Shown here piece after piece: positions 14,089 through 46,578 of a stretch of 64,000 bases of DNA. The number at the start of each line of letters is the position of its first letter. Within the stretch, counting starts at the first letter, position 1. The translations under genes were made by a program, and so were the position numbers. The notes below the pieces were generated by a model, which searched no databases, was not told where the DNA came from, and saw only the letters and a list, made by a program, of their open reading frames with translations. The stretch is taken from assembly GCA_947497245.1 (NCBI GenBank), contig CANMFO010000004.1:183759-247758 (forward strand), written 5' to 3'. The DNA is from an uncultured Flavobacteriaceae bacterium. Its GTDB lineage: Bacteria > Bacteroidota > Bacteroidia > Flavobacteriales > Flavobacteriaceae.

Positions 14089-15387
14089 TCAATCGTTCCT
14101 GGCCCGCCTGTCGATTACGCTGATAGGCTTTCTTCCCAATTTTGACATCCGCAGTTTTTGGATCTCCTCCGAAGGGCGGAATTCGATGGCGGGGGTGACC
14201 CGTAGCTTGGATCGAAAGTGGTCTTTGATATCCCGCAATAGGTCGTCGCTTGGGGAATTTGTTGCAATTTTAATAAGAATCTCGTCCGTACCGATGCTGT
14301 TATGGTCGATTTCGATAACAAAGCTGGTGACTTCGGCAAAATCGTTCAGGGCGTTGTGCATGGCGGGGGGATAAAGTGTGGTACCCTTGTATTTCACCAT
14401 TTGTTTTTTACGGCCGACCACCGATCCCAGGCGCAATGTATTCCGACCACAGTCGCAGGCCCGATCATGGGCCACTACAATGTCCCCTGTTTTGAACCGC
14501 AATAGGGGCATGGCCTCCACGCCCAGGGTAGTGATCGTGAGTTCCCCCTCCGAACCTGGGCGCACTGGATTTTCGCTTTCATCCAAAAGCTCCACGATGA
14601 TCAACTCGGGATGGTGGTGCCCCCCCTGTTGTTGTTCACATTCGGTAAAGGCCGTGCTCATTTCGGTGGAGGCATAGGTAGAATAGAGTTCAATGTCCCA
14701 GGCCGATTTGATCTTGCTTCCCAAAACATTCAGTGAGAAGTCCTGGTCGCGTAGGGCCTCTCCGATACATATGGCACCTTTGACGCCCGAACGGGCCAGA
14801 TCGATTCCATGCTGGTCGGCATATTCGATCAAGATCAATAGAAAGGAAGGGACCACGATCAAATAACTGGGCTTGAATTTAAGAATGGTATCCCACTGCA
14901 GTTCCGGGATCCCCGCGCCAACCCGGACAATACCTGCGCCCAACTCCCTGGCCCCCAAAAAGTACGCAAGTCCGGCCATGAACCTGCGGTCCATCGTAGT
15001 GGTCAACTGCAATATGTCCTCATCCCCAACACCGGCACAGCTAAAGGAGATGGCTTCGTTGTAGGCCAGACGGTCGAGATCGTTATCGGTAAGGGCAATG
15101 GTCACAGGCTCGCCCAATGTACCTGAAGTGGTCACGAAATCCACGATCTTGGTACGGGGAACACATAAAAAATCATCATTGAACTGTTGCAATTGCTCTT
15201 TGGAAGTGGTCGGAACGTGCACCAAATCTTCCAAAGTGTTGATGGAGGACAGGTCCAGTCCATGTTCTTGGAACAATCGTTGGTAATAGGGCGAACTACT
15301 TTGCAGGTACTCCAAAAGCTCTTTCAGTTTTTGTTCTTGGTACATTTTGATTTCGGAGGCACTGGCCTGTTCTATTTCGGGTATCAT
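14089..15387 (-). CDS. PaaK-like adenylate-forming ligase, flexirubin cluster
   Basis: The 432-residue protein is a phenylacetate-CoA-ligase-type acyl-activating enzyme. It has TTSGTLGEP (86-94, P-loop), YASTEM (238-243), RFKTGD (297-302), a CDCG pair (311-314) that may bind zinc, GRKKQMVKYKG (325-335), and a C-terminal RMSKLGRKP with the probable catalytic lysine. By position in a flexirubin cluster it should activate a hydroxycinnamate made by the ammonia lyase at 42992, or another acyl group, for loading onto an ACP. It overlaps the C45 gene by 4 bases and ends the operon. Confidence 0.9.
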   Translation of the reverse strand: MIPEIEQASASEIKMYQEQKLKELLEYLQSSSPYYQRLFQEHGLDLSSINTLEDLVHVPTTSKEQLQQFNDDFLCVPRTKIVDFVTTSGTLGEPVTIALTDNDLDRLAYNEAISFSCAGVGDEDILQLTTTMDRRFMAGLAYFLGARELGAGIVRVGAGIPELQWDTILKFKPSYLIVVPSFLLILIEYADQHGIDLARSGVKGAICIGEALRDQDFSLNVLGSKIKSAWDIELYSTYASTEMSTAFTECEQQQGGHHHPELIIVELLDESENPVRPGSEGELTITTLGVEAMPLLRFKTGDIVVAHDRACDCGRNTLRLGSVVGRKKQMVKYKGTTLYPPAMHNALNDFAEVTSFVIEIDHNSIGTDEILIKIATNSPSDDLLRDIKDHFRSKLRVTPAIEFRPSEEIQKLRMSKLGRKPISVIDRRARND

Positions 15388-17987: not shown

Positions 17988-19525
17988 TATGCCGTTTTTA
18001 TCTTTTTACCGTCCCCTGTGATCTTGTTGATCAGATATTCGCCTCCCAACAGCTCCGAACAGGTAAGCACACCGCTGATGGTCACTCCCAAAATACCGTG
18101 CATGTTTAGGTTCTGGCCGGTAAAAAGGAGGTTGGGAATCCGGGTCCGGGGAGATATGAAGGATTTCAAGGGGTTGGCGACATCCTTAACCGATCCGTAC
18201 ATCGATCCCCTGTGACAACCTATATAATCACGATATGAAAGAGGTGTCGAGGTATGGATGGACTGGATGCATTCTCGAATGTTGGGGAATTTTTTTTCGA
18301 TTTCTTTTATAAAAACCTCGGTTTTGATGCTTTTGAATTCCTCGTAGGTCTCGCCCCTGTCATTTTTGTGTGCCACTGTATTGAAGGTCTCGGCCCAGGG
18401 TTCAACCTCCTCGAAACGCATATAGCTGATGGCCGTCAGTTGGTCGGTCCATTCATCTTGATCTTTGCGCACTCCCATGGAGACCATATAGGTTTCCGGC
18501 CAACTTTCCATGGTGTATTTATGGCCGTTCCATACCGCGTTGTAATCTTTGAAATGGTAATAATTTTTGTTGAGGTACTTAAAGGATCGCGGCTTCAGGA
18601 CCATATGGATGCTAAAGGCCGAAATGGTATTCTCTATATCTCCTATGCGGTTGCAGTACGATTTTCTAAAGTGGGTCTCCCCGACCAGTTTTACAGTGGT
18701 TTTGGGCTCGATATTGGAAATAAAGACGTCGCCCCTTACCACATTCCCCTTCCCGGTACGAACCGAAACAACTTTTTTGTCCTCCACATCAAAACGTACC
18801 ACCTCTTGGTGGTTATAGGCCTCGCCACCGTGTTCCTTTAATTTGCGGACAAGCATTTTAGTGATTTGGCTCCCCCCGTTGGCACAACGGTAGGCACTTT
18901 CGATATAGGAGTTCACGGAGAGGGCGTGCACGTACAACGGGCTCTTGTCCTCATCTCCGGCATATAGCAGATTCGAACCGGCCAGTACGGCCTTCAGTTT
19001 TTCGTTCCGCGTTAGGGAGTCGATATATTTTTTCACCGGAAATTCGAACATATTGGAATTCTCATAGTACGGCTTCCCCAGTTTTAAATTGTACAATGGA
19101 AATTTTTCGCAGGTTTCCCTCAACTTGGCGGTATAGGCCCTTATGGCAGGCGCCTCATCCGGAAATTGGCCGATCAAACTGTTCTCAAAATTTTCATAGC
19201 CCTGTGCATGGGGATACTCCGTTTCGTCGCCATCAAAAGTAATGATGTCGAATCCATCCTTATCGAGCTGCTTTAAATCCAGGCCATCCAAAATATCCAG
19301 ATAATCAAAGTACCGATATAGGTTTTGGCCTTCGGAGAGTCCGCCCAGATAATGTACGCCGGTATCAAAAATGGTTTTTTCGCGCACAAAGGTCTGCAGG
19401 TTGCCCCCGTACTGGTTGTTCTTTTCCAAAACACAGACCGATCTCCCTTCACGTGCCAGGATATTGGCAGCTACCAGGCCGCCCATACCACTCCCCACGA
19501 TTACCACATCATAGTGCTCCTTCAT
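17987..19525 (-). CDS. phytoene-dehydrogenase-like FAD oxidoreductase
   Basis: The N-terminus has the FAD-binding DVVIVGSGMGGLVAA loop (residues 6-20). The C-terminus has LLFTGQNLNMHGILGVTISG, typical of carotenoid desaturases and all-trans-retinol 13,14-reductase-like enzymes. At 512 residues it is full length. In flexirubin clusters this enzyme is a standard member and may reduce or desaturate the polyene or form the aromatic ring of the resorcinol. The exact reaction is not shown here. It overlaps the MMPL fusion gene by 17 bases. Confidence 0.88.
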   Translation of the reverse strand: MKEHYDVVIVGSGMGGLVAANILAREGRSVCVLEKNNQYGGNLQTFVREKTIFDTGVHYLGGLSEGQNLYRYFDYLDILDGLDLKQLDKDGFDIITFDGDETEYPHAQGYENFENSLIGQFPDEAPAIRAYTAKLRETCEKFPLYNLKLGKPYYENSNMFEFPVKKYIDSLTRNEKLKAVLAGSNLLYAGDEDKSPLYVHALSVNSYIESAYRCANGGSQITKMLVRKLKEHGGEAYNHQEVVRFDVEDKKVVSVRTGKGNVVRGDVFISNIEPKTTVKLVGETHFRKSYCNRIGDIENTISAFSIHMVLKPRSFKYLNKNYYHFKDYNAVWNGHKYTMESWPETYMVSMGVRKDQDEWTDQLTAISYMRFEEVEPWAETFNTVAHKNDRGETYEEFKSIKTEVFIKEIEKKFPNIRECIQSIHTSTPLSYRDYIGCHRGSMYGSVKDVANPLKSFISPRTRIPNLLFTGQNLNMHGILGVTISGVLTCSELLGGEYLINKITGDGKKIKTA

Positions 19526-22500
19526 CGTTTTTTACCGTTTTCTTTAAGACCATAAAGTTATCATTTTGTTCGATAGTGGCGAAACCCTTGTCCCCGATAC
19601 CCGTTCCCGAAAATCTTTGGGCTTCCTTCAGCAAAATGAACATTTCCGTTTCCGTCATTTTTTCCTTGTCCATGGAAGCGGGATCGACCGACTCCAAATC
19701 CCAAATCACTACGGTTGATCTATTTTGCCATGCCTCTTCCAACGAATCCACGACTGTTATTTTACTGTATTGATGGATGAGGAAGTTGTTTTTGAGGAGG
19801 TTCCTTGCCTCTGGATCTTCAAGATATACCGTGATCTTCCTATCGATCGAGTCCAAGGCCAGTAGCAGGTCCAATTGCCCATGGTCCTGGGAAATATGGG
19901 CAATGGTACCGTCTTTTCCGACCAACTCCATGATGGAGCGGTAGCTTTTTTGTTGTGCCTCCAGGTCTTTTTTGATTTGTCGATACACCGCATCGCCTTT
20001 GTAGCGAAAGTGTTCCAAAATGGATCTTTGCCAGTAGCGCTCCGTTTCTACCTGGTCTCGAAAACGGCGGAATTCCTGTCTGAAGTGGCGCCCTATTTTT
20101 TTGGCGCGCTCTCGATAGCCACTCCCAAAACTGTGGTCATCGGTCTTTATTCTTGGTAAAACTTCAATAGTGATACTACCATCCCGGATAATAAAGCTTC
20201 CCTTGGGCAAGACCTCCGAATTGCCGTGGATGAGCACGGGAAGTATGTCCAGGTCAAACTGCTCCGCCAAATAAAAGGCCCCTCGGTGAAAACGACGGAT
20301 CTTGTTGCTGGTCGAACGGGTGCCTTCGGGAAAGGCAACCAGGTTGAACCCTTGTTCCACTTTTTTCTTCAAGTAGGTCTCCCCCTGCTCGATACCTCCC
20401 GACACGGGGTAGGCACCTGCCAGTTTCGCCCCGTTTCCAAATACGGGGGACCCGTATACCCAATCGTTTACCAAGAAGACCATCTTGGGGTGCAGCATGC
20501 CAATGGACAGGATATCCAAAAAGGAAGTATGGTTGGCGATGATCATTGCGGGTCTTTCAAAGGTTTCACCAAGCGGATTGTCAATTTTCTTGGATACGAA
20601 GGGGTTCGTGTACAGGACGGAACGCATCAAGCTGGAAACCATTTTATGGAAACCCGTATTTGGTTTTTCCCTGCTTTGTGGGAACCATTTGAGAACCATC
20701 CAAGCGTAGGTCGAGAGGACGAACCCACCACCACCAAAATAACCGAAAGACAGTACGGAATGGATCAGATATCGCAATGAAATGGGCCTTTTTGTACGAT
20801 TTCCTATGAACAACCGGAACAATAGGGGCTGGAGGGTAAATGCCACCAGGGCCGCAGATAGGATACCGATCAAGGACACTGCCGAAATGGTGTACAACAC
20901 CGGATGTTTGGCAAAGATCAGCACCCCTACGCCGGCCATGGTGGTGATCACGGACAATACTATGGAAGTCTTATGGGTAGGAAGCGTTTTCTCCCCACTG
21001 CGGTATTCGGTCAATAGGCCATTGGTGATAAAAATACTGTAGTCCACGCCGAGACCAAAAATAAAGCTACAGATTATGATATTGAAAATATTAAATTCCA
21101 TATGGAAGAGCCCCATGACCCCGACGGTGAGAAACCATGTTAAAAAAATGGGTATACTGGTGACCAAGGTCAGGGATAGGCTTCTGTAGAACAGGAACAG
21201 TATCAACAATACCACGATCAACGAGTACCTTATGAGGCTGTTGAAATCGTTTTTTAGATTGCCCAGAAAGGTTTCGTTTACCTGCTGGCGGTCAATGAGC
21301 AAGGTATTGGGGTCGTTGGAGAAGCTTTCCCGTACCGCGGGGACATTTGGGCCATCGACCTTGATCAGGGAGGTAATGGTAGTGCCGTTTTCATCTTCGA
21401 CGATGTAATCGTCGACGGCCAATGATTTTACGGCCCCGAAATCCTCCATGCTTATTGGACCAAATTCATTCTCCAATAGGGAATAGAAGCGGTCGAAGGC
21501 GTTTTCCTTAAAGCCGAAACTGGAACTGCCCCTTATAAGATTTTCCCTTACTTGAACTTTTTTTTCAGCTTGCCAGAAGCGGTTCCATTGTTCAATTTTC
21601 TGGTTTTGGACCTTTTTGGAATGTACCAGGGCCCCAACGGAACTATAGCTGATCACCGCTCCCTTTTCCCGCAACCGTTCCAGTTTTTGGTGGAGTGCAT
21701 CGTTCTGGAGCAAAACACCCTCCCGATCGGCACCATAGGTCGAAAGGTAAATCGATTTTGAACCGATGTCCGTTGATTTTTCCAGACGTTGTCTGGCCTT
21801 GAAAAGGGTTTCGGACTCATAGTTGAGTTTGGTAATGTCTTTGTTGAAAATGACCGTGTGATAGGTAAATACACTGACGGCCCCGACGGCCAATACCGCA
21901 AAAATGGCCACCTTGTTGCGGTGAAGCTTATAGGCCGCCACCCGGTCCAGTACCGTAGTCTTTTCTTTCTTTACGGTGTGGTATACCTGTGGAATGAACA
22001 ATAGGGCAAAAACCGAGGCCCCCATGACACTGACCGCGGCAAATATTCCCAGATCCTGCAGGGCCTGGGACTCCAGGAACAACAGACATAAAAAGGCCGA
22101 AGCAGTGGTGAGGCTGCTCATTAGAATCGATGGCGCCACCTCTTTGTACAGACTGGGAAGGCTTTTTCCATTTCGTATATGTGTCAGGATATGCAGGGCA
22201 TAATCCAAAGTGACTCCGAGCAATACCGACCCAATGCCCAGTGAAATGGCCGAAATTTTAGTACGGATCAAACAGAGAAAGGCCACCGACAAGAGAACCC
22301 CAAAAACGGTTGGGGAAAATAGGATCAGGGGCAGGGTCAATTTGCGGTAGAAAAAGATCAGCAACAGGGCCAGCAAGGTCATCGCGATACTTACGGTAAA
22401 CCGGATGTCCTGTCGAATCTGTTTGGCATTTGCCACGGCCACCAAAGCTGCCCCGTAATACTCGCATTGTGCCTTCCGGCTGTATTTGGTGTTCAATTTT

Positions 22501-23210
22501 TCCCGCAGCGCATAGAGATCGTCCGAAAAGGAGATGTTTTGGTCCGTTCCGTTCGATCCATATGTAGGGGTCAGAAAAAGCAAGATATGCGACTCGTCCC
22601 GGCTCAGGAGAAAACCGTTCTTTAGTTTGAAGCCATCGGCTATGCCCAATTGTTGCATTTTTTTGAGGGCAATGAGTGAAAGCCCCAAGGGGTCCTTAAC
22701 GATGTTCCGTTTGGCAACAATGCCCGAAGGTGAGATAAGGACACGATAGTTTTCCCCCATGATCTTGGCAATGCTGTCCGGGGATAGCCTCCGATCGATC
22801 TGTTCGTAATCCGGGGCATCAAGGAAAAGAGGAAGGTTGTTGTAGATGAGGTCCAAGGTTTTTGGTATCGTCCCATCGTCGACCCTGCCCTGGATATTCT
22901 TGATGAATTCCGCATTGTTCGTTTGGACACTGTCCAGGAACTCCATGGCGTATTGGGTAAGATCATCGACGCTACCTTGCGGTTCCTTTAGGATATTGAC
23001 CACGATCTTATCGGTGAAGGTGATGGATCTCAGTACTTTCTGAATGCGTTGGGCATCTCTGTTCGATGGGATCAAGGAGGTGATGTCATCTTCGAAGCGA
23101 ATTTGTCGCACGGCCCCCAATAGGCCAACGACGATCAACAAAAGCCCTACCAAGCTCCACCAACGTTTTTTGGTGATCCACTGGTGCGCCCTAAAGAATG
23201 CCTTACCCAT
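19509..23210 (-). CDS. MMPL/RND transporter - lysophospholipid acyltransferase - methyltransferase-like fusion
   Basis: The 1233-residue protein is a three-part fusion seen in flexirubin clusters. Residues 1-800 form an MMPL/RND exporter with two six-helix bundles and paired GVTLDYALH (332-340) and GVDYSIF (721-727) proton-relay motifs. Residues 815-1060 form a PlsC-type acyltransferase with NHTSFLD (His894, Asp899) and FPEGTRS (960-966). Residues 1065-1233 occupy the place of a class I methyltransferase, but the glycine-rich SAM loop is replaced by IAHISQDHGQ. It probably exports or positions the pigment at the membrane and may acylate it. Confidence 0.92.
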   Translation of the reverse strand: MGKAFFRAHQWITKKRWWSLVGLLLIVVGLLGAVRQIRFEDDITSLIPSNRDAQRIQKVLRSITFTDKIVVNILKEPQGSVDDLTQYAMEFLDSVQTNNAEFIKNIQGRVDDGTIPKTLDLIYNNLPLFLDAPDYEQIDRRLSPDSIAKIMGENYRVLISPSGIVAKRNIVKDPLGLSLIALKKMQQLGIADGFKLKNGFLLSRDESHILLFLTPTYGSNGTDQNISFSDDLYALREKLNTKYSRKAQCEYYGAALVAVANAKQIRQDIRFTVSIAMTLLALLLIFFYRKLTLPLILFSPTVFGVLLSVAFLCLIRTKISAISLGIGSVLLGVTLDYALHILTHIRNGKSLPSLYKEVAPSILMSSLTTASAFLCLLFLESQALQDLGIFAAVSVMGASVFALLFIPQVYHTVKKEKTTVLDRVAAYKLHRNKVAIFAVLAVGAVSVFTYHTVIFNKDITKLNYESETLFKARQRLEKSTDIGSKSIYLSTYGADREGVLLQNDALHQKLERLREKGAVISYSSVGALVHSKKVQNQKIEQWNRFWQAEKKVQVRENLIRGSSSFGFKENAFDRFYSLLENEFGPISMEDFGAVKSLAVDDYIVEDENGTTITSLIKVDGPNVPAVRESFSNDPNTLLIDRQQVNETFLGNLKNDFNSLIRYSLIVVLLILFLFYRSLSLTLVTSIPIFLTWFLTVGVMGLFHMEFNIFNIIICSFIFGLGVDYSIFITNGLLTEYRSGEKTLPTHKTSIVLSVITTMAGVGVLIFAKHPVLYTISAVSLIGILSAALVAFTLQPLLFRLFIGNRTKRPISLRYLIHSVLSFGYFGGGGFVLSTYAWMVLKWFPQSREKPNTGFHKMVSSLMRSVLYTNPFVSKKIDNPLGETFERPAMIIANHTSFLDILSIGMLHPKMVFLVNDWVYGSPVFGNGAKLAGAYPVSGGIEQGETYLKKKVEQGFNLVAFPEGTRSTSNKIRRFHRGAFYLAEQFDLDILPVLIHGNSEVLPKGSFIIRDGSITIEVLPRIKTDDHSFGSGYRERAKKIGRHFRQEFRRFRDQVETERYWQRSILEHFRYKGDAVYRQIKKDLEAQQKSYRSIMELVGKDGTIAHISQDHGQLDLLLALDSIDRKITVYLEDPEARNLLKNNFLIHQYSKITVVDSLEEAWQNRSTVVIWDLESVDPASMDKEKMTETEMFILLKEAQRFSGTGIGDKGFATIEQNDNFMVLKKTVKNDEGAL

Positions 23211-34212: not shown

Positions 34213-35208
34213 TTATATCGCTTTTTTGAGTTTTCCAAAAAAAGCGGCTTCCCTATTGCCGATGGCCTCGAGTTGGTCGGCGACCTTGTTGTAGGCGTCG
34301 GTATGTACGCTCCGGTTCTTATAGATACGGGAGGCGTCCAGGGCAAAATCGCGCCATTGGTCCCCTATTTCGGTCATTTCCCTAGAGAGCTCCGCCAGCC
34401 GGTCGTTGCCCAAAATTTTGCTTGATTCCTGCAAAAATGCGGCATAGATATACCGGAAGCCTCCACCACCCGTTCCGATCTCTTCCTGCATCCGAACCAC
34501 TTGGCCCAAATAATGGTTGGCTTTTTTTGTGCCGTGTTTCTTGGGCCATTTTCGAATCAGTTTGGCAACGGTCTTAACCCCTTTGGCCCCTACAATGGGG
34601 ACCGGGGCCAGCATCTCGCGGCAGGTGTGCCGGATTCCCTTGACAATGGCCTTTTTCAGGTCCAGGGTCTCGGGAAAGGCGACCGGGTAGTACATATGCC
34701 CCTTGGGGGCAAAGGCCCCTTTGGCATAGCGCACTTTTTCGAGTTCCTTCTCGGTAAGTGTGGTGACGTGCTGCATCACCGGGTCGCTGATCAGATACTG
34801 CCCATTTTCCTTGCCATAGACCACTAGGTTGTGCGCGTTGAAATGGAAGCGGTACTCATCGGGGAAGTAGACCAGGTTGTATACCCCTACCTGCAGGCCT
34901 ACCGGGTTGTTGCCCTTTAGGTTTTCGTCCAGCCGTTCCCTGGCTTTTTTGGGATCCTTGAATTTTTCCCTTTTGATCTTTATGCCCACCCGTTTGGCAA
35001 AGCGGCTAAAAATGAAACCGGCCATGGCACGGTAGGTGATCAACGGGGCATAGTTGATCTTGACAAAGGGAATATAGCAAAACAATAATCCCGAACCGAT
35101 GCCAAAAACCATGGGTTCGCTTACCTGATATCCATTGAAGCGCATTAAATTGGAGACCACTCCATTTTCGCAGTGCGCGGATTGTTTGTGTTCAAAATCT
35201 ATTTTCAT
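34213..35208 (-). CDS. BtrH-like (DUF4872) protein
   Basis: The 331-residue protein starts with a BtrH N-terminal domain: SAHCENGVVSNLMRFNGYQ puts Cys13 in the place of the papain-like nucleophile, with His in RFHFNAHNLVVYG and Asp in YLISDPVMQ. BtrH transfers an acyl group from ACP to an aminoglycoside, so this protein may move an aryl polyene or other acyl chain from an ACP to the resorcinol hydroxyl. The C-terminal 130 residues are the helical DUF4872 part. The acceptor is inferred only. Confidence 0.87.
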   Translation of the reverse strand: MKIDFEHKQSAHCENGVVSNLMRFNGYQVSEPMVFGIGSGLLFCYIPFVKINYAPLITYRAMAGFIFSRFAKRVGIKIKREKFKDPKKARERLDENLKGNNPVGLQVGVYNLVYFPDEYRFHFNAHNLVVYGKENGQYLISDPVMQHVTTLTEKELEKVRYAKGAFAPKGHMYYPVAFPETLDLKKAIVKGIRHTCREMLAPVPIVGAKGVKTVAKLIRKWPKKHGTKKANHYLGQVVRMQEEIGTGGGGFRYIYAAFLQESSKILGNDRLAELSREMTEIGDQWRDFALDASRIYKNRSVHTDAYNKVADQLEAIGNREAAFFGKLKKAI

Positions 35209-36519: not shown

Positions 36520-37653
36520 CTAATGTACCGTTAGATAAGCATAGGTATAGGAAAAGCGGGCACTTTCCGGAACGAACAACAAGATACGGTCCCCTTTTTT
36601 GAGGGTTCCGGAATGTACAAGTTCTTCCAACATGATGTAGATGGACGCCGAACCGATGTTTCCTACCTTTTCCAGGTTCAAGAACCATTTGTCATAGGGC
36701 ATTTCCACACCTTTGTCCTTCATCTCATCGTAAAAGCCTTGTTTGAAATAGTTCGATGAAATATGGGGTAGATAATAATCTACATCTGCCGGGGAGATTC
36801 CGTGTTTTTCATAAGCCTTCTTAAGACTGTCCACGGCCTTTTCAAGAATATGCTCCCCCAAGAGCTTTACATCCTGCTTTACCGAAAAAAGTGACTGCTT
36901 GCCCCATTCTTCCGAGGAATAATCGCTCCAGGGCTTCAAGCTGCCATCTTCCAGTTTTTCGCCTCCGGAATACATACAGGTCTCCATTTCAAAGGCATAG
37001 GAATAGCCTTCCATCCATTCGATCTTCAGTGAGATAGCGCCCTTTGGTTCGTTCTCCAACAGGACCGCCCCCGCCCCGTCCGAGAGCATCCATCTTAAAA
37101 AGTCCTTTTCAAAGGCGATTATGGGGTTGGCCTCCAATTTTTTAAGATTCGATACCTCATCTTCAAAAACCGTGGATTTGAGCCTGGACGAAGACCTTTC
37201 GGAACCCGTGCAAACGGCGTTGGAAACCTGATCCGATTTAACGGAAAGATAACCGAACTTTAGAGCGTTCATGCCGGAACAGCATACCCCGGAGGCCGAA
37301 TTGATCTCCAGGTTACGATTTTTTAGTAGGCCGTGGACCATCGCCGCGTGTGAAGGCAACAATTGGTCGGGGCTGGAAGTCCCACAGGACAACAGTTCCA
37401 TGTCATTGACGGTAAATTCGTCATCACACAAATTTTTTATGGCCTCTTCCGTCAATTGGGCATTGCTGTGTGTCATTTCCCCGTTCTCCCCAATGGCGTA
37501 ATACCTGGTCTTGATTTGGTTACTACGGAGAACGATGTTCTTGGCCCTGGAGGGACTGTCATTGACATATCCCAATTTTTCCTCCATTTGATCGTTGCCA
37601 ACCGGCAGATTGGGCAGAAACTTCGAAATCCTTGTGATGTATACGTCTTTCAT
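36520..37653 (-). CDS. darB: DarB-type KAS III (dialkylresorcinol synthase)
   Basis: The 377-residue protein is a KAS III homologue. The nucleophile region is SASGVCCSGMNAL (Cys124 or Cys125), with His in YYLPHISSNYF and Asn in KVGNIGSAS. DarB joins two beta-ketoacyl units to form the 1,3-cyclohexanedione precursor of 2,5-dialkylresorcinol, which DarA then aromatises. The pairing with darA in adjacent genes (55 bases apart) is the diagnostic context for flexirubin-type DAR biosynthesis. Confidence 0.9.
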   Translation of the reverse strand: MKDVYITRISKFLPNLPVGNDQMEEKLGYVNDSPSRAKNIVLRSNQIKTRYYAIGENGEMTHSNAQLTEEAIKNLCDDEFTVNDMELLSCGTSSPDQLLPSHAAMVHGLLKNRNLEINSASGVCCSGMNALKFGYLSVKSDQVSNAVCTGSERSSSRLKSTVFEDEVSNLKKLEANPIIAFEKDFLRWMLSDGAGAVLLENEPKGAISLKIEWMEGYSYAFEMETCMYSGGEKLEDGSLKPWSDYSSEEWGKQSLFSVKQDVKLLGEHILEKAVDSLKKAYEKHGISPADVDYYLPHISSNYFKQGFYDEMKDKGVEMPYDKWFLNLEKVGNIGSASIYIMLEELVHSGTLKKGDRILLFVPESARFSYTYAYLTVH

Positions 37654-37708: not shown

Positions 37709-38635
37709 TTACCGATTTTTTAAATGGACGGAGGAATAATATTTGGTGTCCCTTTTTATTTTTCCGTACAACGGAATATAAGTCAGCAAAAATACAATAA
37801 AAACGATAGGGGAAATAATCCAGATAGCAAATAAAAGATAGTATTTGAAGAAGACAAGCCATTTTTTGCGGGACCGGGGCGCGGCCTGTGTCTTCTTTTG
37901 AATCAAGTTCGCCCATTTTGTGAAAATGATGTTCCCGCGCTTTTCTGTCGAAATAAGGGCCGGTTTTATCCGTACGGCACCGAGGGACAAAAGGGTATCC
38001 TGAAGGCTTTCGAAATTTCCCTTGGACAGGGCCTCCCCAATGGGTGCGCCAAATTTTTTCGCTCCCAAAATGTCCGCATCGGAAACCCCGGGTTTGGGAA
38101 AAATACCGAACATGCGGTCTTTTTTTCCATTTAGCATCCAATGCACGATGGTCAGAACACTGATATGGTTCCAGTGCCGATCCACCAAGGCAATATTGCC
38201 TACCAGGCGCGCTTCACAGTCTACCAAAAGCCTTTTTACCTTTTCCTGTGACTGGAACCACATGTTCCGGGCGCCGATTACCGTCACGACAGGAGTGTTT
38301 TTCAGGAGATGTTTCGCAGCATCGGATTTTAAAAAGGAGTTCAGGGGGATGGATGGCGACAAGAACCAAACTTGATGGCCCAGGAGTACCAAATCGTATT
38401 TTTTTTGCATCAGTTCGGGGGCCGGGACATTGATTTCGGTTGGAATCTGGAGAAAGGATTCGGGAAAGGCATCCATGAATTTTTCCTGTTCCCATGGAAA
38501 GTCATAGGGTTCATTTGGAACAATCTGATGAAAATTCAGATTTACGCCCTCCCCTTTCATGGCCGAGGCAATATTCACAAGAATGTCGAACAACTGCCCC
38601 GTTTGCGAATAGTAGACTACCAATACTTCTTTCAT
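37709..38635 (-). CDS. darA: DarA-type aromatase (dialkylresorcinol condensing enzyme)
   Basis: The N-terminus is flavodoxin-like (EVLVVYYSQTGQLFDIL), with YDLVLLGHQVWFLSPSIP and VVTVIGARNMWFQSQEKV. The C-terminus has two membrane helices (FKYYLLFAIWIISPIVFIVF). This is the DarA layout; DarA is an FMN-dependent enzyme that aromatises the DarB product to a dialkylresorcinol. It overlaps the upstream acyltransferase gene by 4 bases. Confidence 0.9.
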   Translation of the reverse strand: MKEVLVVYYSQTGQLFDILVNIASAMKGEGVNLNFHQIVPNEPYDFPWEQEKFMDAFPESFLQIPTEINVPAPELMQKKYDLVLLGHQVWFLSPSIPLNSFLKSDAAKHLLKNTPVVTVIGARNMWFQSQEKVKRLLVDCEARLVGNIALVDRHWNHISVLTIVHWMLNGKKDRMFGIFPKPGVSDADILGAKKFGAPIGEALSKGNFESLQDTLLSLGAVRIKPALISTEKRGNIIFTKWANLIQKKTQAAPRSRKKWLVFFKYYLLFAIWIISPIVFIVFLLTYIPLYGKIKRDTKYYSSVHLKNR

Positions 38636-39545: not shown

Positions 39546-39794
39546 TCAGTCCAGTTTTCTTTCGATCAGGTCATAAAAATCCTGTAGGGTAGTGATGTTC
39601 ACGAAGTCCTCGCCCACCAATTTCACCCCAAAGTTGCTCTCAACGGCAACGACAAGGTCTACAAAATCCAAACTATCGAGGCCCACGGCATCCTTTAGGT
39701 TTGCTCCCGGGGCGAGTTCTTCTTTATCGACCTCGAATTCGTCGATGAGGAATGCGTCTATCTTTTCAACAATAACTTGTTTGGTCATTATCAT
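39546..39794 (-). CDS. acyl carrier protein
   Basis: The 82-residue acidic ACP has VGLDSLDFVDLV, with Ser41 as the phosphopantetheine site. The start at 39794 overlaps the upstream KS stop as ATGA, favouring it over the ATG at 39788. It shares its local context with the KS and FabG genes, so it may be the main elongation ACP. Confidence 0.95.
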   Translation of the reverse strand: MIMTKQVIVEKIDAFLIDEFEVDKEELAPGANLKDAVGLDSLDFVDLVVAVESNFGVKLVGEDFVNITTLQDFYDLIERKLD

Positions 39795-41017
39795 TTTTCG
39801 CTAGCAGTTTTTATGATCAAAGCGGAGTTTGTACCTCCAAACCCGAATGAATTTGACAAAAATACGTCAATTTTTTTATTTAAGGTTTTCTTAACGATGT
39901 TTAATTTGGCCGAAACCTCATCGGGATTTTCCAGATTGATGTTGGGCGCAATAAACGAATTTTGCATCATCAACATCGAATAGATGACCTCGCTTGCCCC
40001 GGCCATCCAGCATTCATGCCCGGTCATCGATTTGGTGGAGCTCACATGGGGGCAGTTTTCCCCAAAAACTTCCAGGATGGCCCTGGCCTCATTGGCATCG
40101 CCGACCGGGGTCGATGTGGCATGTGCGTTCACGTAATCGATGTTCGAAGGGACTATTCCCGCTTCGTTCAAGGCTTTTTTCATTGCTCTTGAAGGGCCTT
40201 CCATATTGGGGGTTGAAATATGGTCGCCGTTGGAAGAAAAGCCATATCCGATGATCTCCCCTAAGATATTGGCCCCGCGGTTCCTGGCGGATTCATAGCT
40301 TTCCAATACCAGGGTAGCGCCCCCACCGCTGGGCACAAGTCCGTTCCTGTCCTTGTCAAAGGGCCTGGAAGCACTTTTGGGATTGTCCTTGTGCGTGGCA
40401 AAGACGCCGAGACCGTCAAAACTGCCCATGGCCAGAGGATTGATTTCCTGGGCCCCTCCCGTAAGAATACAGTCTTGAAGGCCACTTTTTATGAGGTGGT
40501 AGGCGGTACCGATGGAATGGGACCCGCTCGCACAGGCCGCACTGATGGTGAAGTTCACCCCCTTGAGCTTGAAAATGGTGGAGAGGTTCATCGTTACCGT
40601 GGAGTTCATGGCCTTGAAAATGGCACCTGAGCCCACCAAGGTCGTATCCCTTTTCTCGCGCATCACATCGATCGATTCGATAACCGATTTGGCCGTGCTG
40701 TCATTGCCATAGATGATGCCCACTTCATGGGCATCCAAAAAATCTTGGTCGATCTTGGCATTTGTCAATGCCTCCAGGGTCGCCATATAGGCATATTGGG
40801 TCTCTTCGCCCATGCTGATACGCTGCCTCCTCGAAAGCATGGGCTTTAGATCGGGTGCGTCCACAGCACCGGTCAGTGGGGAACGGTATCCGAAATCTGC
40901 GCGTTCCTGGTCGTAGATGATGCCCGACCTGCCCTCGTACAGGGAGGTTTTGACCTCGTCCAAATTCTTGCCAATGCAAGAATAAATGCCCATTCCTGTA
41001 ATAACTACTCGCTTCAT
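39791..41017 (-). CDS. beta-ketoacyl-ACP synthase (FabF-like)
   Basis: The 408-residue protein has Cys162 in SAACASGSHSIG, His in NAHATSTPVGD (HAT in place of the usual HGT) and His in KSMTGHECWMAGASE. Lys-Ser-Met and Gly-His are conserved, so it should be active. It is one of three complete KAS II-type enzymes in the operon and is encoded next to its ACP with an ATGA overlap. Confidence 0.94.
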   Translation of the reverse strand: MKRVVITGMGIYSCIGKNLDEVKTSLYEGRSGIIYDQERADFGYRSPLTGAVDAPDLKPMLSRRQRISMGEETQYAYMATLEALTNAKIDQDFLDAHEVGIIYGNDSTAKSVIESIDVMREKRDTTLVGSGAIFKAMNSTVTMNLSTIFKLKGVNFTISAACASGSHSIGTAYHLIKSGLQDCILTGGAQEINPLAMGSFDGLGVFATHKDNPKSASRPFDKDRNGLVPSGGGATLVLESYESARNRGANILGEIIGYGFSSNGDHISTPNMEGPSRAMKKALNEAGIVPSNIDYVNAHATSTPVGDANEARAILEVFGENCPHVSSTKSMTGHECWMAGASEVIYSMLMMQNSFIAPNINLENPDEVSAKLNIVKKTLNKKIDVFLSNSFGFGGTNSALIIKTASEK

Positions 41018-41034: not shown

Positions 41035-41778
41035 CTAAGAATAGATGCCCCCGTTGATATTGATTACCTCTCCGGTGATATAGGACGCTTTGGACGACGC
41101 CAAAAACGATACCATATGTGCCACTTCCCCTGCCTCGCCAAAACGGTTGGCCGGAATCATCTTCTTTAGCTCCTGTTCGTTCAGTTCACTGGTCATGTCC
41201 GTTTTTATGAACCCGGGCGCGACCGCATTTACAGTAACGTTTCTTTTTGCTACTTCTTGTGCAAGCGCCTTTGTGGCACCGATTACCGCAGCTTTGGCGG
41301 CCGAATAATTGGTCTGTCCCGGGGTGCCCTTGAGGCCCGATACCGATACCAAATTGATGATTCTTCCGTATTTGTTGACCAGTAATTTTTGAATCAGTGC
41401 ATTGGTGACATTGTAAAAGCCATTTAGGCTCGTATCGATAACATTCGACCAGTCTTCCCTGGGCATCCACATGAAAAGGCCGTCCTTGGTGATGCCCGCA
41501 TTGTTCACCACGACCTCTATAACGGCATTTTTATGCTGTTCGTGCCAAGTTTCCAGAACCGATTTGACCTGTTCCGCATCGACCACATCAAAGGGCATCA
41601 ATTCCCCCGTGCCCCCCGCAGCCTGCACAAGCCTAAGAGTTTCGGCCGCCGCCTCCCCATTCCGGTTGTAGTTGATGAGGATGGGATAGTCCAGGTCCTT
41701 GGCAAGTTGCTCGCATATCGCTCTGCCGATGCCCCGGGAACCTCCGGTGACCAATGCATACTTCTTTTTTTTCTCCAT
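41035..41778 (-). CDS. fabG: FabG-like 3-oxoacyl-ACP reductase
   Basis: The 247-residue SDR has TGGSRGIG (11-18), a VVNNAGI core, and catalytic YSAAK in GQTNYSAAKAAV, with SVSGLKG supplying the Ser. AVAPGFIKTDM is typical of FabG. It is the only ketoreductase in the operon and should reduce beta-keto groups of the polyene chain with NADPH. Confidence 0.95.
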   Translation of the reverse strand: MEKKKKYALVTGGSRGIGRAICEQLAKDLDYPILINYNRNGEAAAETLRLVQAAGGTGELMPFDVVDAEQVKSVLETWHEQHKNAVIEVVVNNAGITKDGLFMWMPREDWSNVIDTSLNGFYNVTNALIQKLLVNKYGRIINLVSVSGLKGTPGQTNYSAAKAAVIGATKALAQEVAKRNVTVNAVAPGFIKTDMTSELNEQELKKMIPANRFGEAGEVAHMVSFLASSKASYITGEVININGGIYS

Positions 41779-41864: not shown

Positions 41865-42995
41865 TCATTTCATCGAAACGAAGGGTTCGGCATTTTTGAA
41901 CCATTTGTTGGCAAGGAGTTCCCCTTTTTCATTCAGATACCCCCATCCTTTTTTTGACTTGACCCGTGCTAGGCCATTTTTGAACCCTTTTTGCTCGGCA
42001 CCTTTAAGAAATGCCAATCCTGCGGTGATATCGTATTCCATGGGGATGACCAAATTGCCGGTCTTGTCGATAAAGCCCCAACGCTTTTCCTTGACGGGAG
42101 CCAGTCCGTTGTCGGCGAAAACCTCGGCATCCTTGTATTGGTAGTCCACGACCATTTGCCCTTTGCCATCAATGTAGCCCCATAGTTTTCCCTTGGCGAC
42201 CGGGGCCAGACCGTTTGCGAAAGACCGGGCCTTATCAAATGTGGGTTGAATGACCCATTCCCCTTTGCTATTTACAAAACCCACCTTCTTTGCCTTGCGG
42301 GCATAGGTAAGGTCGGAACCCGTATGGAAATTCCAGACTTTGTCCGCCCCCTCGATCGGACTAAAGGTACCCTTTTGGATAATTCCAAAGGCCCCTCCCT
42401 TCTTGGCATAGACCCCATTGCTACTGTACGTATTCCCGACCTCCTCGTACTCGACCGGGATGACCACCTCGCCTTTGGCGTTGATCATGCCCCATTGTTC
42501 GCCGCTTTGCACTTTGGCATGGCCGTTCCTGAATTTTTTTATCGATCTGTAGGTGGGTTCCAGGATTACTTTGCCATCGGGTCCCAATAGGCCCACCATT
42601 TCCATTTTTTTGTAGGGCGCCACCCCTTCCTCAAAATCGTAATATTTATCGGCGGCAGGAACATCCAGGACCTTTCCGGACCGATCGATATACTGCCATT
42701 GGTCGTCTTGGTTTACCAGGGCGACCCCCGAATTGAAGTGCTTTACCTTCTTGTACCGGGGTTTGATGGCCCATGCGCCGGTAGCATCTATATAGCCCCA
42801 TTGATCGGCCTCTTCGGCAGCGGCCAGGCCATCGGAAAAGCTCTTCGCCCTTTCGAATCTTGGTTCGATCACATATTCGCCCGAGGTGTTGATATAACCA
42901 AATCGGTCCCCTTCCCTTACCAATGCCAGATCTTGGGCATAGGATGAAAAAATACTCAAAAAAACAAGCAAAAAAACAGTGTAAAAAGTTCTCAT
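41865..42995 (-). CDS. secreted WG-repeat protein
   Basis: The 376-residue protein has a signal peptide (MRTFYTVFLLVFLSIFSSYA) followed by about ten WG-type repeats, each near 35 residues, with cores such as WGYIDATGAWAIKP, WGMINAKGEVVIP, WGYIDGKGQMVVD and WGFIDKTGNLVIP. WG repeats are beta-hairpin modules of unknown biochemical role, usually at the cell surface or periplasm. It overlaps the ammonia lyase gene by 4 bases. I know of no proven role in pigment formation. Confidence 0.92.
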   Translation of the reverse strand: MRTFYTVFLLVFLSIFSSYAQDLALVREGDRFGYINTSGEYVIEPRFERAKSFSDGLAAAEEADQWGYIDATGAWAIKPRYKKVKHFNSGVALVNQDDQWQYIDRSGKVLDVPAADKYYDFEEGVAPYKKMEMVGLLGPDGKVILEPTYRSIKKFRNGHAKVQSGEQWGMINAKGEVVIPVEYEEVGNTYSSNGVYAKKGGAFGIIQKGTFSPIEGADKVWNFHTGSDLTYARKAKKVGFVNSKGEWVIQPTFDKARSFANGLAPVAKGKLWGYIDGKGQMVVDYQYKDAEVFADNGLAPVKEKRWGFIDKTGNLVIPMEYDITAGLAFLKGAEQKGFKNGLARVKSKKGWGYLNEKGELLANKWFKNAEPFVSMK

Positions 42996-44527
42996 GATTT
43001 TTTATTTTGATGGTTTATAATATAGTCCTTAACAGCGTTTACATAAGGATACATAACAATATCCTCTTTAAAGGGGGGAACTATATTTCTGACCGCGTCG
43101 TACAGTTTTTTGGTCTTGCTCGAAACCTTGTCCTGTACCTGTAGGAACTCTATGGCCTGTACCACGGTTATCATTTCAATGGCGATGATCTCGAAGGCGT
43201 TCTCGATCACCTTTTTGGTGATCAGGGCCGCGTTGGTGCCCATGCTCACTATATCCTGGTTGTCGTTGTTGTTGGGAATGCTGTGGACATACATGGGATT
43301 CGACAGCATTTGATTCTCCGCGGCGGTCGAAGTGGCGGTAAACTGCACTCCCTGCATACCGAAATTCAGGCCCAAGGTCCCCAAGTTTACAAAGGGAGGT
43401 AGGATGTCGTTCAACTTTGAGTTCAAGAGGTAGTTCAATTGCCGTTCCGCGAGCATGCCCATTTTGGTAACGACAATTTTCAATTTGTCCATTTCAAGGG
43501 ATACGTAGTCTCCGTGAAAGTTTCCTCCGTGGTATACATTTTTTTTGGCCACATCAACAATAGGGTTGTCATTGGCGGAATTTACTTCTTCGATGATAAT
43601 GCGTTCCACATTGTTCAAGGTGTCCAAAACGGGCCCCAAAATTTGGGGCACGCAGCGTAGGGAATAGTATTCCTGTACTTTTTCCTCAAAGACGGTCACC
43701 TCCTCCGTTGAAACGTACAGATGGTGCTCCCTCTTTCTGGTCAGACCGCTATCCTGTAAATGGCTGCGCATGGATCGGGCGATTTCGCGCTGTCCCAAAT
43801 GTTTTTTGGTCTGGTTGAGATCCTCGCCCAGGTGATCGTCGTAGGCCTCCACTATTTCGTTGATGGCCGAGGAACAACAGATCATCCATTCCAACAACCT
43901 TCGGGTGTATATGGTGTTCACCACCCCGATTCCGGTCATGACCGAGGTACCGTTGATCAGTGCGAGGCCCTCTCGAAGCTCGACCTGGATGGGGGAGATG
44001 CCCTCTTTTTCGAAAACGTCCTTCGTGGGCCGTCGCTCCCCATGGTAAAAGACCTCCCCTTCGCCAATCAGCACCAGTGCCAAATGGGCCAGTTGTACCA
44101 AATCCCCACTGGCACCGACACCTCCATGTTCATAGATCAGGGGAATAATATTTTTGTTGATCAGTTTGACCATTACATCAATGACCGATGCATGCACTCC
44201 CGAATTTCCCAAACTAAGCGTGTTCAACCGTGCCAACATGGCGGCCTTTACATATTTGGGTGCAATGGGGTTCCCAGTGCCCGACGCATGGCTCCGAATC
44301 AGGTTGTATTGCAAGCGTACCGTTTCGGAATCTTTGATCTTGTATTGGGCCATGGGGCCAAAGCCGGTATTCACTCCATAGATGATCTTGTTCTTGGAGA
44401 ACTCCTTTAGAAAGTCAAAACTTTTTTGGACGGTACTGAGAACGGCTTCATCTACTGCAATGGGTTCATCTTCAAATATAACTTCGTAAAACTCCCGTAT
44501 TCCTAACTTTCCTTTAATTTTTGGCAT
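42992..44527 (-). CDS. HAL/TAL-type aromatic amino acid ammonia lyase
   Basis: The 511-residue protein has the self-processing MIO triad Ala139-Ser140-Gly141 in GGVGASGDLVQLAHLA. YGVNTGFGP and SIPNNNDNQDIVSMG are further class motifs. In flexirubin producers this enzyme makes 4-hydroxycinnamate from tyrosine, the aromatic starter. The selectivity pair in NLIRSHASG is Ser79-His80, which is more like histidine ammonia lyases than the His-Leu of Rhodobacter TAL, so substrate assignment rests on context. It is the first gene of the operon. Confidence 0.88.
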   Translation of the reverse strand: MPKIKGKLGIREFYEVIFEDEPIAVDEAVLSTVQKSFDFLKEFSKNKIIYGVNTGFGPMAQYKIKDSETVRLQYNLIRSHASGTGNPIAPKYVKAAMLARLNTLSLGNSGVHASVIDVMVKLINKNIIPLIYEHGGVGASGDLVQLAHLALVLIGEGEVFYHGERRPTKDVFEKEGISPIQVELREGLALINGTSVMTGIGVVNTIYTRRLLEWMICCSSAINEIVEAYDDHLGEDLNQTKKHLGQREIARSMRSHLQDSGLTRKREHHLYVSTEEVTVFEEKVQEYYSLRCVPQILGPVLDTLNNVERIIIEEVNSANDNPIVDVAKKNVYHGGNFHGDYVSLEMDKLKIVVTKMGMLAERQLNYLLNSKLNDILPPFVNLGTLGLNFGMQGVQFTATSTAAENQMLSNPMYVHSIPNNNDNQDIVSMGTNAALITKKVIENAFEIIAIEMITVVQAIEFLQVQDKVSSKTKKLYDAVRNIVPPFKEDIVMYPYVNAVKDYIINHQNKKS

Positions 44528-44591
44528 GTATGGTTGATTCTGTCGGCCTTAAGTGATATTTTAGTACTTAAAAGTAGCCATTTCGGTTGGC

Positions 44592-44617
44592 AAATTTATA
44601 ATAATTAGGGAAGCAAT
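44592..44617 (-). promoter_or_regulatory. candidate promoter of the flexirubin operon
   Basis: On the minus strand there is an exact TAAATTTG, matching the Bacteroidota -7 element TAnnTTTG, at 44592-44599. A TTG lies 15 bases upstream (44615-44617). The distance to the ammonia lyase ATG is about 65 bases. The spacer is shorter than the usual 17-23, so this is a candidate only. It is in the divergent region shared with the halogenase-like gene; on the other strand TATTTTTG (44623-44630) could serve that gene. Confidence 0.42.
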
Positions 44618-44725
44618 ATCGTATTTTTGTTACCAATACCCAATTACAAATCAAATTTTCAAAGTTTTTGAACCCAATGCCCTTATTTTGTTTCTGACAA
44701 CGGAAAAGGCGCTAAAAAATGGAGT

Positions 44726-45976
44726 ATGAAAAACCAGAACGTCGATGTTCTCATTATAGGTGCCGGACCTTCGGGCGCTGTGGCCGCAGCCTATCTTCAT
44801 CATCAGGGAATTTCGGTAAAAGTGGTCGAAAAGAACCGCTTTCCGAGATTTGTGATCGGGGAGAGCCTTATCCCAAGGTGCATGGACCATTTTGAGGCGG
44901 TAGGACTTTTGGACTGTTTGGAGGAAAAGGGGTTTGAAATTAAAAAAGGGGCCCGGTTCATTAGGAAGCCCGGACAGGTCTGCGAGTTCGATTTTGCAGA
45001 AAAACACGGGGAAGGATGGGATTGGACCTGGCAGGTGCCACGTGCCGATTTCGATAAGGCGCTCACCGATGAGCTCCAGAAGTGGGGCCTGGACATCGAT
45101 TTTGAAAAGGAAGTGGTGGATGTTGAATTCTCGGGCACCGGTTCCAAAACCACGATCAAGGACAGCGCTGGGGACCTCGACACGATCGAAGCAAAATACA
45201 TAATAGATTCCAGCGGATACGGAAGGGTCCTGCCCCGCTTGCTCGGTTTGGACAAGCCCTCGGAAATTCCAAAACACTCCTCGATATTTACCCATGTCAA
45301 GGACATCAGGAGGCCCGAGGGCCGCGAAGGCACCATGATCACATTTGATGTGGTGAGCCAAGAGACCTGGTTGTGGGTAATCCCTTTTTCCAACGGGACT
45401 ACCAGCATCGGTTACGTGGGGCCGACCGAATATTTGGAATCTTTTGAGGGAACGACCACCGACAAACTGGCCAAAATGATGGAGCTGTCGTGCTACTATT
45501 TCGACAGGTTCGATGGGGTCGATTATCTTTTTGAGCCCAAAATGATCCGAAATTTCTCCAAATCGGTAAAGCAGTTGTATGGGCCGGGCTATGTGCTTAC
45601 CGGCAACAGCGCCGAATTCCTGGATCCAGTGTTTTCATCGGGGGTCGCCTTTGCCACGGAATCTGCCTACCTTGCCGCCAAATTGATCACCAGGGAACTG
45701 GACGGGGAAAAGATAGATTGGGAAACCCAGTATACGCAGTACATTTTGGAAGGGGTCGGTGTATTTTCCACCTACGTAAAGGAATGGTACACCGGGAACC
45801 TACAGAAAATCTTTTTCCACACTTCCGTCAACGAATCCATTAAACGGCAGATCTGCGCTGTTTTGGCCGGTTATGTCTGGGACAAGTCGAACCCTTTTGT
45901 AAAAAACCACGACCGCCTGGTAAAGACCGTGGCACATATAGCCGATATGGAGATGTCCCGGACCGTGGACCCTTGA
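44726..45976 (+). CDS. flavin-dependent halogenase-like oxidoreductase
   Basis: The 416-residue protein has the FAD loop GAGPSGAVAAAYL (residues 12-24) and GESLIP. Trp215-Leu-Trp217-Val-Ile219-Pro220 fits WxWxIP, and Phe298 to Gly306 (FLDPVFSSG) fits Fx.Px.Sx.G; both mark flavin-dependent halogenases as opposed to simple hydroxylases. Lys73 or Lys74 in FEIKKGARF fits the catalytic lysine region of phenolic halogenases. It would need a separate flavin reductase. It is transcribed away from the flexirubin operon across a shared 198-base region. Some flexirubins are chlorinated on the ring, so this is a plausible tailoring step; a hydroxylase cannot be excluded. Confidence 0.83.
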   Translation: MKNQNVDVLIIGAGPSGAVAAAYLHHQGISVKVVEKNRFPRFVIGESLIPRCMDHFEAVGLLDCLEEKGFEIKKGARFIRKPGQVCEFDFAEKHGEGWDWTWQVPRADFDKALTDELQKWGLDIDFEKEVVDVEFSGTGSKTTIKDSAGDLDTIEAKYIIDSSGYGRVLPRLLGLDKPSEIPKHSSIFTHVKDIRRPEGREGTMITFDVVSQETWLWVIPFSNGTTSIGYVGPTEYLESFEGTTTDKLAKMMELSCYYFDRFDGVDYLFEPKMIRNFSKSVKQLYGPGYVLTGNSAEFLDPVFSSGVAFATESAYLAAKLITRELDGEKIDWETQYTQYILEGVGVFSTYVKEWYTGNLQKIFFHTSVNESIKRQICAVLAGYVWDKSNPFVKNHDRLVKTVAHIADMEMSRTVDP

Positions 45977-45981
45977 TCGCC

Positions 45982-46578
45982 CTAAGTTTTCCGGTGCAGG
46001 AATTTTGAAATCCAATTCCCCAGGTCGCTATAGGCCGTACCGATTCGAAATTGATCAGAATCGCCGCTCAGTCCCTCACCATGAATGATTTCACTGGAAT
46101 AAAGAACGTTCGAAGGGTTTGCTGTTTCGAATATCGTTATGGTCGCTTCCAATTTTGCATGCTCCAATACTATGCCAAGATAATATCCGGGATAAATGAG
46201 ATGTGTTTTGACAGAAATGGTGTATTTGGCATTTGGATGGTCTCTCGAGATGCTGATTTTCTTCTTTTTGAGTTCAAACTTATGAAACCCTTCGAGGAAA
46301 CTTGGCTCAAAGTGGCTTTGCCTATTTTCAAACCATTCACGCCTAAACTTTTCCCCGGAACCGACCTTTAACCTCTCACGCTTTTCAACCTGTTTCTCCA
46401 AGTAGTTTTTTTCCGACCCGAAATTGGGCACTTGCATATCGTCGGCATATTCAAATTCAATGTTGTATTCCCTTACCTTCTCCAGAGACTTGATGCTTCC
46501 CGTTACGGCCTTATAATTCTGTGCGGCAAGGAATACGATGGGAAACGCCATCAGAAAACAAAACAATATCTTTCTCAT
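45982..46578 (-). CDS. secreted protein, paralogue of the next gene
   Basis: I start at ATG 46578 (MRKILFCFLMAFPIVFLAAQ), which gives a clear signal peptide. The mature part of about 180 residues has a helical, charged first half and a beta-rich second half with YTISVKTHLIYPGYYLGI and ATITIFETANPSNVL. The same pattern occurs in the protein at 46698 (YTLIVDTVWVYPGWDAGI; LLTFVETANRDNIL). The family is unknown to me. Confidence 0.78.
   Translation of the reverse strand: MRKILFCFLMAFPIVFLAAQNYKAVTGSIKSLEKVREYNIEFEYADDMQVPNFGSEKNYLEKQVEKRERLKVGSGEKFRREWFENRQSHFEPSFLEGFHKFELKKKKISISRDHPNAKYTISVKTHLIYPGYYLGIVLEHAKLEATITIFETANPSNVLYSSEIIHGEGLSGDSDQFRIGTAYSDLGNWISKFLHRKT

Follow-up and report, generated by a model that had tools for sequence, protein, structure and literature searches.

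The flexirubin gene cluster

The window analysed in this study is a stretch of 64,000 nt from an uncultured Flavobacteriaceae bacterium. On its plus strand, an ORF with an ATG start (44726-45976) specifies a halogenase-type flavoenzyme of 416 aa, which is the orthologue of the eleventh gene of the flx cluster in a genome resembling that of Chitinophaga pinensis. Its head-to-head partner, across a divergent intergenic region of 198 bp (44528..44725), is the gene for an aromatic ammonia-lyase of the FlxA type (tyrosine ammonia-lyase; 42992..44527, minus strand), assigned by PF00221 (E 4e-166) and by synteny. From 44527 to 14089 the minus strand carries genes for the lyase, a ketoreductase, ketosynthases, an acyltransferase, DarB, DarH, LolA, a glycosyltransferase, an MMPL exporter and FlxY. 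The ketoreductase (FlxB-type, 41035..41778) and one ketosynthase (FlxC-type, 39791..41017) were recognized by Pfam and by tblastn to the C. pinensis-like genome, and the exporter, which is fused to an acyltransferase (19509..23210), by domain matches. Three more of these minus-strand genes exceeded their NCBIfam cut-offs, namely those for the dialkylresorcinol ketosynthase DarB (36520..37653; NF053539, 653.4 bits, cut-off 550), the BtrH-related acyltransferase DarH (34213..35208; NF053550, 509.7 bits, cut-off 300) and the flexirubin CoA ligase FlxY (14089..15387; NF053551, 712.9 bits, cut-off 520). A candidate for DarA (37709..38635, minus strand) was named by position only: its homologue adjoins darB in the C. 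pinensis-like genome, it matches no Pfam family at 0.001 and a flavodoxin match is sub-threshold. The presence together of lyase, FlxY, DarB, ketosynthases, LolA and MMPL exporter confirms, at the level of gene content, the predicted flexirubin biosynthesis cluster, and the original prediction was correct in describing the halogenase-type gene as divergent from the flexirubin operon.

The intergenic region carries two TAnnTTTG-type, -7-like elements, one on the lyase side (44591-44598, minus strand) and one on the halogenase side (44622-44629, plus strand). Both were sought, by consensus match only, in related 130-bp upstream stretches from 74 of the best 80 loci, six being left out; the lyase-side element occurred in 60 of the 74 (7.35 expected from simple shuffles), and the halogenase-side element in 26 (9.8 expected from shuffles). 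A scan for sigma-70-type promoters, less successful than that for the Bacteroidota-type elements above, returned three sites against 1.6 expected, and a scan for terminators returned none against 2.4 expected. An AT-rich block around CAAATTTATAATAATTA recurs between the lyase and the halogenase-type gene (44528-44725; L001-L080), and is possibly the lyase promoter.

On the other side of the halogenase-type gene are two tandem paralogues on the minus strand (45982-46644 and 46698-47360; 29% identity, 8e-24) without a Pfam match, the first of which is convergent to the halogenase-type gene, 5 bp separating the two reading frames. Beyond them lies a gene for a beta-lactamase-fold protein (PF00144; 47406-48698, minus strand), and further along one for a PorV-family protein of type IX secretion (57979-59091, plus strand).

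Conserved motifs and family membership

The protein was aligned with 174 others, giving 175 rows drawn from 208 loci with a match, after removal of duplicates, pieces of up to 380 aa and pieces with a stop. A script located the motifs WxWxIP (WLWVIP; residues 215-220, 45368..45385, plus strand) and FxxPxxSxG (FLDPVFSSG; residues 298-306, 45617..45643, plus strand) at the residues originally given for them. The residues K73, W215, W217, I219, P220, F298, D300, P301, F303, S305 and G306 are identical in all 175 rows, S304 occurs in 174, and the remaining motif residues are at least 99% conserved, including G12, G14 and G17 of the FAD-binding motif GxGxxG (residues 12-17, 44759..44776, plus strand). 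A lysine at 73 or 74 had been proposed to lie in the expected region. The script placed KKGA at residues 73-76, and of the two lysines only K73 (codon 44942..44944, plus strand) is conserved, K74 being found in 10 of the 175 rows.

In a comparison of columns, K73 aligns with a lysine in the halogenases CmlS, CndH, FasV and Bmp2, which we take to be their catalytic lysine, and also with one in the structure 3NIX. These five proteins match the window protein in the compared columns with few exceptions (S at 75 in CmlS; L at 303 in FasV; Q, T and Y at 305 in CmlS, FasV and Bmp2, respectively). Asp and Pro occupy the K73 column in two further flavoproteins from this genome, which lack the complete motifs. 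Phe303, which is common to the window protein, CmlS, CndH and Bmp2, presumably stands in the place of glutamate E346 of PrnA. This glutamate is named in the available text of the BrvH paper (PMC5945002), where WxWxIP is also said to have been suggested as a guard against monooxygenase action.

Search scores point in the same direction. The best Pfam family of known function was Trp_halogenase (E 3.2e-22, 79.5 bits against a cut-off of 21), matched in two stretches that cover part of the length, and in NCBIfam it was the CmlS equivalog NF033113 (150.9 bits, below its cut-off of 900). Among PDB sequences, phmmer gave 3NIX as the best match (E 8.8e-140 over residues 1-408), followed by CmlS (E 4.6e-38), FasV (8ZOP), CndH, Bmp2, PltA, ChlB4, RadH and Mpy16 at 95-134 bits. 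The remoter halogenases CtcP, PltM and PrnA scored 56, 55 and 26 bits, PrnA thus falling below the best digeranylgeranylglycerophospholipid reductase (38 bits); the best rifampin monooxygenase scored 35. An AlphaFold2 model built from 26 sequences (pLDDT 87.6, pTM 0.89) was closest to the six chains of 3NIX (TM 0.93-0.95, 47-48% identity), and among the best 50 rows of the fold search ranks 7-28 were halogenases, with monooxygenases starting at rank 29. The GxGxxG FAD module and, in the predicted model, the halogenase fold are both present. Residues 295-299 are the weakest stretch of the model, with pLDDT below 50, and since they overlap the start of the 298-306 motif, the predicted side-chain geometry there carries no weight here.

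The nearest characterised relatives by sequence and fold are therefore halogenases, and membership of the flavin-dependent halogenase family is supported by the search scores. Placement among hydroxylases or geranylgeranyl reductases, which had been named beforehand as evidence that would count against the prediction, was not what these scores gave. Some similarity to both does exist, as the geranylgeranyl reductase family GG-red-SF (TIGR02032) scored 108.4 bits (below its cut-off of 158.8), and FAD_binding_3, at 77.1 bits, nearly equalled Trp_halogenase. Against a protein of the geranylgeranyl-reductase or class A hydroxylase families stand the halogenases as top matches of known function in Pfam, NCBIfam, PDB sequence and PDB fold, and the absence of the lysine and complete motifs from the two other flavoproteins of the genome. 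Such an identity was rejected on these scores, and we regard it as very improbable.

The window protein would have the same fold, as modelled, as CmlS, CndH, FasV, PltA, Bmp2, Mpy16 and ChlB4, at 23-26% identity, and by column it shares the Lys position, WxWxIP and FxDPxxSxG with CmlS, CndH, FasV and Bmp2; all seven differ in serving other pathways. In a maximum-likelihood tree of 38 rows, which did not include PltA, Mpy16 or ChlB4, the Bacteroidota enzymes formed one clade (95/95) with 3NIX inside it, separate from the characterised halogenases, and the Proteobacterial aryl-polyene enzymes lay outside this clade. The backbone leading to the characterised halogenases had bootstraps of 27-48, with long outgroup and Bmp2 branches, and gives too little support to place the clade within that group. 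3NIX itself is a flavoprotein/dehydrogenase of Cytophaga hutchinsonii, released by structural genomics in 2010, and carries the same motifs and lysine, although its title gives no specific function.

Linkage to the lyase and distribution

Synteny was compared across the best 80 of 419 relatives. In 79 of these 80 loci the gene is head-to-head with the lyase gene, with 82-345 bp between the matched ends, the exception (L075) having both genes on one strand, 5.7 kb apart. Coordinates show this head-to-head arrangement in family f3 too, for 10 of its 13 carriers, with the two genes no more than about 430 bp from each other. The gene is a regular neighbour of the flexirubin cluster among these best 80 loci, and the idea of an isolated oddity was ruled out.

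Genomes were then scored at thresholds of 1e-100 for the lyase and, for the enzyme, 1e-60 in the phylum set and 1e-30 in the families. Among 296 genomes of the phylum of the window, 23 carry the enzyme, 25 the lyase and 27 DarB; the lyase accompanies the enzyme in all 23 carriers, and DarB accompanies the lyase in 24 of 25 genomes. One genome (G118) has enzyme and lyase and gave no DarB match, so that it perhaps makes an aryl polyene that lacks the resorcinol. In family f3 (121 genomes) the lyase occurs in 18 and the enzyme in 13, always with the lyase. Family f4 (147 genomes) has 47 lyase genomes and 39 enzyme carriers; 38 of these carriers also hold the lyase, and the remaining one, G631, is a 69% complete genome. 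The lyase was found in 3 of 121 genomes of family f11, one of which (G238) lacks the enzyme; this family enters the pooled counts through G238 alone, the other two lyase genomes being left out. With shared genomes counted once, 71 of 86 lyase genomes carry the enzyme, and 71 of 72 carriers hold the lyase. The enzyme follows the pathway yet can be missing while the lyase stays, and therefore behaves like a tailoring enzyme; such gene content fits a gene that would be dispensable for the pathway. In two genomes of one genus (G586 C1:3826034-3827305 and G664 C96:18170-19519) the match to the protein is broken near residue 238-251, both parts lying in an open frame; this points to an insertion.

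Relatives outside the phylum set were found in a plasmid database, where 143 records had a match; ten were examined, eight of them annotated. In three of the eight annotated records the gene belongs to an aryl-polyene operon that also encodes an aromatic ammonia-lyase (Pseudoalteromonas CF6-2, Pseudoalteromonas THAF3 and an Acinetobacter record; 37-42% identity). Relatives in Roseomonas and Azospirillum (30%) are found in clusters that resemble those for aryl polyenes, the stretch inspected having no annotated lyase, and one in Aureispira (48%) has flexirubin-type genes nearby. Two Streptomyces relatives have a type I polyketide setting and a non-ribosomal peptide setting, respectively. Two hits (H22 and H23; two-piece matches of about 39% identity) come from records that are entered as plasmids of Neisseria gonorrhoeae and, at 2.17 Mb, are probably chromosomes. 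Among viral contigs five stretches fitted a search pattern, and none was confirmed as a relative.

The close pairing with a lyase that makes 4-coumarate, and not with late pigment genes, could be taken to mean that the protein is a true halogenase of another substrate, such as free 4-coumarate or a small phenol, whose product is used or excreted apart from flexirubin. The main pigment of C. pinensis, which in the available text carries no halogen (PMC3992019), would fit this, as would those f4 genomes where the gene is far from the lyase (e.g., G017, G269). In the Proteobacterial records and the C. pinensis-like genome, however, the gene lies within the pigment operon and not beside the lyase, and a separate substrate of this kind is considered improbable.

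The orthologue in a very probable Chitinophaga pinensis genome

The genus g195 carries the gene in 78 of 79 genomes, twice as partial matches. One of these genomes, G700, has an orthologue with all the motifs, 48% identical to the window protein, inside its flx cluster. On the plus strand of G700, from lyase to FlxY, there are 25 consecutive ORFs of more than 80 aa, equal in number to the letters flxA to flxY in the available text of Schoner et al. Roles established by tblastn or Pfam agreed with that text for A, B, C, I, L (weakly), N, O, P, T, U and Y, the comparison leaving out F, Q, R and S. Two positions did not match cleanly: V, described as a possible ketoreductase, is in G700 a relative of the amine-oxidase-like flavoprotein of the window, and W, described as a 'ligase-like' enzyme, is an acyltransferase relative. 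DarB is apart, at 8.58 Mb, and the published account likewise puts it apart in C. pinensis. G700 is very probably C. pinensis DSM 2588.

Counted from flxA, the halogenase-type gene of G700 is the eleventh in the row, FlxK. It is like the window gene in its motifs and its flexirubin cluster but differs in position, since it is part of the operon, some 7 kb past the lyase and next to a gene for a methyltransferase (FlxJ, likewise by counting), where the window gene is head-to-head with the lyase; and the pigment of the strain is unchlorinated. According to the available text of PMC3992019, C. pinensis DSM 2588 was grown in LB with 5 g/L NaCl and its flexirubin is C43H54O4, chlorine-free. Feeding of ring-d4-tyrosine gave +3 Da, one ring deuterium being lost, which was attributed to methylation, and the resorcinol part gave an MS3 identical to that of the product of heterologous darA and darB (same source). 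From the lack of chlorine, the +3 Da and the unchanged resorcinol MS3, it follows that, in cells grown in this way, neither the ring nor the resorcinol of the main pigment bears a trace of the orthologue. The +3 Da also makes a cryptic halogenation of the C. pinensis ring unlikely. Unchlorinated pigment under chloride-replete growth, named in advance as a result that would speak against chlorination, thus appears to have been observed, for an orthologue of 48% identity and not for the strain of the window; minor chlorinated congeners and differences between lineages may play a part.

These data bring in another reading, that a halogenase-fold enzyme does not halogenate the pigment in nature, being a flavin monooxygenase or oxidase of the aryl-polyene pathway whose action adds nothing that persists in the main product, or having an accessory role. 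It draws on the presence of all motifs in what is very probably C. pinensis DSM 2588, with its halogen-free pigment, and of the gene throughout most of that genus, and on the adjoining methyltransferase gene of an organism whose pigment is methylated. Moreover, QhpG has a fold most like that of CmlS and is nevertheless a monooxygenase, at least in the available text of PMC7876137, so that a CmlS-like fold can serve hydroxylation. On the other hand, Lys73 and WxWxIP, the latter with its suggested action against monooxygenation (available text of PMC5945002), are kept in every row of the alignment, the d4-tyrosine result speaks against ring hydroxylation, and the resorcinol MS3 is that of the darA and darB product (both in the available text of PMC3992019). 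On balance a non-halogenating enzyme seems rather unlikely.

The methyltransferase FlxJ (Methyltransf_2 type; G700 C1:2267278-2268345) was followed across the loci that only some of the carrier genomes had given; the commonest lengths of the loci from the genome searches were 4.2-4.5 kb, too short to show a FlxJ further away. It is present in 55 of 57 loci of family f4 and genus g195 (L225-L281, G700 included), in three f4 loci (L103-L105), in 1 of 19 other loci of the phylum genome search, in none of 13 loci of family f3 and in 3 of the best 80 of 419 relatives. Where a locus holds both genes they are at most 250 bp apart in 59 of 63 cases. No FlxJ was found in the 64-kb window, and in the lineage of the window the ring may therefore be free for a halogen at the point of methylation in Chitinophaga. 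A neat division of lineages into methylated and halogenated ones is no more than suggested by this gene content.

Possible function

Ring chlorination of the polyene is a known flexirubin variation, as the original prediction had stated, and FlxY accepts 3-chlorocinnamic acid (available text of PMC3992019). Related pigments offer two parallels, both in aryl-polyene clusters and likened here by description only. Xanthomonas has a halogenase gene and brominated xanthomonadin, and Lysobacter has neither halogenase nor bromine (available text of PMC3691225); against this stands the aryl-polyene cluster of Azoarcus, where arcA is annotated as a halogenase and the available text of PMC3949708 mentions no halogen for the pigment. 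Both clusters differ from the present one in using a chorismate-derived starter, in contrast to a tyrosine lyase (available text of PMC3949708 and PMC3691225). A literature search found no enzyme assigned to flexirubin chlorination, no measured activity for any member of the flexirubin clade, and nothing joining flexirubin with tryptophan halogenase or 3NIX with halogenase; the available parts of PMC12584681, PMC8151938 and PMC5932025 contain nothing on halogenation.

The favoured explanation, to which we give a probability of roughly 0.6, is that the protein is a two-component flavin-dependent halogenase of the phenol/pyrrole type that tailors the phenol head group or its precursor. It is favoured because the catalytic set is uneroded across the 175 rows, and because the presence of the xanthomonadin halogenase gene tracks bromine, as described in the available text of PMC3691225. 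FADH2 would be supplied by a general flavin reductase encoded elsewhere, HOX (X = Cl or Br) would be made at the flavin, and this would pass along a tunnel to Lys73. Halogenation would then take place ortho to the phenol of the tyrosine-derived head group, the substrate probably being a free or carrier-bound 4-coumaroyl/aryl-polyene intermediate. It would be a tailoring step of which pigment assembly is independent, as some lineages are without the gene, and in Chitinophaga grown in the laboratory the main pigment would show no sign of it. The halogenating activity itself, the halide, substrate, regiochemistry, timing and FADH2 source are all inferred, and the halide could as well be bromide as the chloride of the original prediction.

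As to the flavin reductase, none had been seen near the gene, and this holds for Pfam PF01613, the sole match of the genome being on contig C3 (the window is on C4). A reductase on another contig would be compatible with a two-component halogenase; PF01613 also occurs in 13 of 14 control genomes, so its presence is not specific.

The original proposal has accordingly been upheld in part. The family, Lys73, the linkage to the pathway and a gene content typical of a dispensable step all favour it. Chlorination of the head group, as it was worded, is not supported, given the unchlorinated pigment of the strain that very probably has the orthologue. Activity on the pigment is plausible, yet as regards the main product it is contradicted by the single relative whose chemistry could be linked to a genome. 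If the enzyme does halogenate, it would do so conditionally, partially or in certain lineages only. It could tentatively be speculated, though we lean away from so broad a statement, that a widespread aryl-polyene clade, associated with pigments started by a tyrosine lyase in Bacteroidota and some Proteobacteria, keeps a full catalytic set without lasting halogen on the main pigment, and has a conditional or non-halogenating function, such as halogenation of the pigment confined to particular conditions of light, oxidant or bromide, or a part played together with the adjacent methyltransferase.

The halogenase-type gene is the clear candidate for the enzyme of flexirubin chlorination. Its occurrence in what is very probably a strain of unchlorinated pigment creates a contradiction that can be tested. 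Either flexirubins are halogenated conditionally and too few cases have been reported, or an entire clade that bears halogenase or oxidoreductase annotations acts otherwise. Natural controls for an effect on the pigment are provided by the 15 genomes that keep the lyase and lack the enzyme (G099, G299, G384, G395, G400, G238 and nine of family f4). Four of these 15 belong to group g28, where five genomes hold the lyase. DarB was looked for in two of the 15, G099 and G238, and was present in both.
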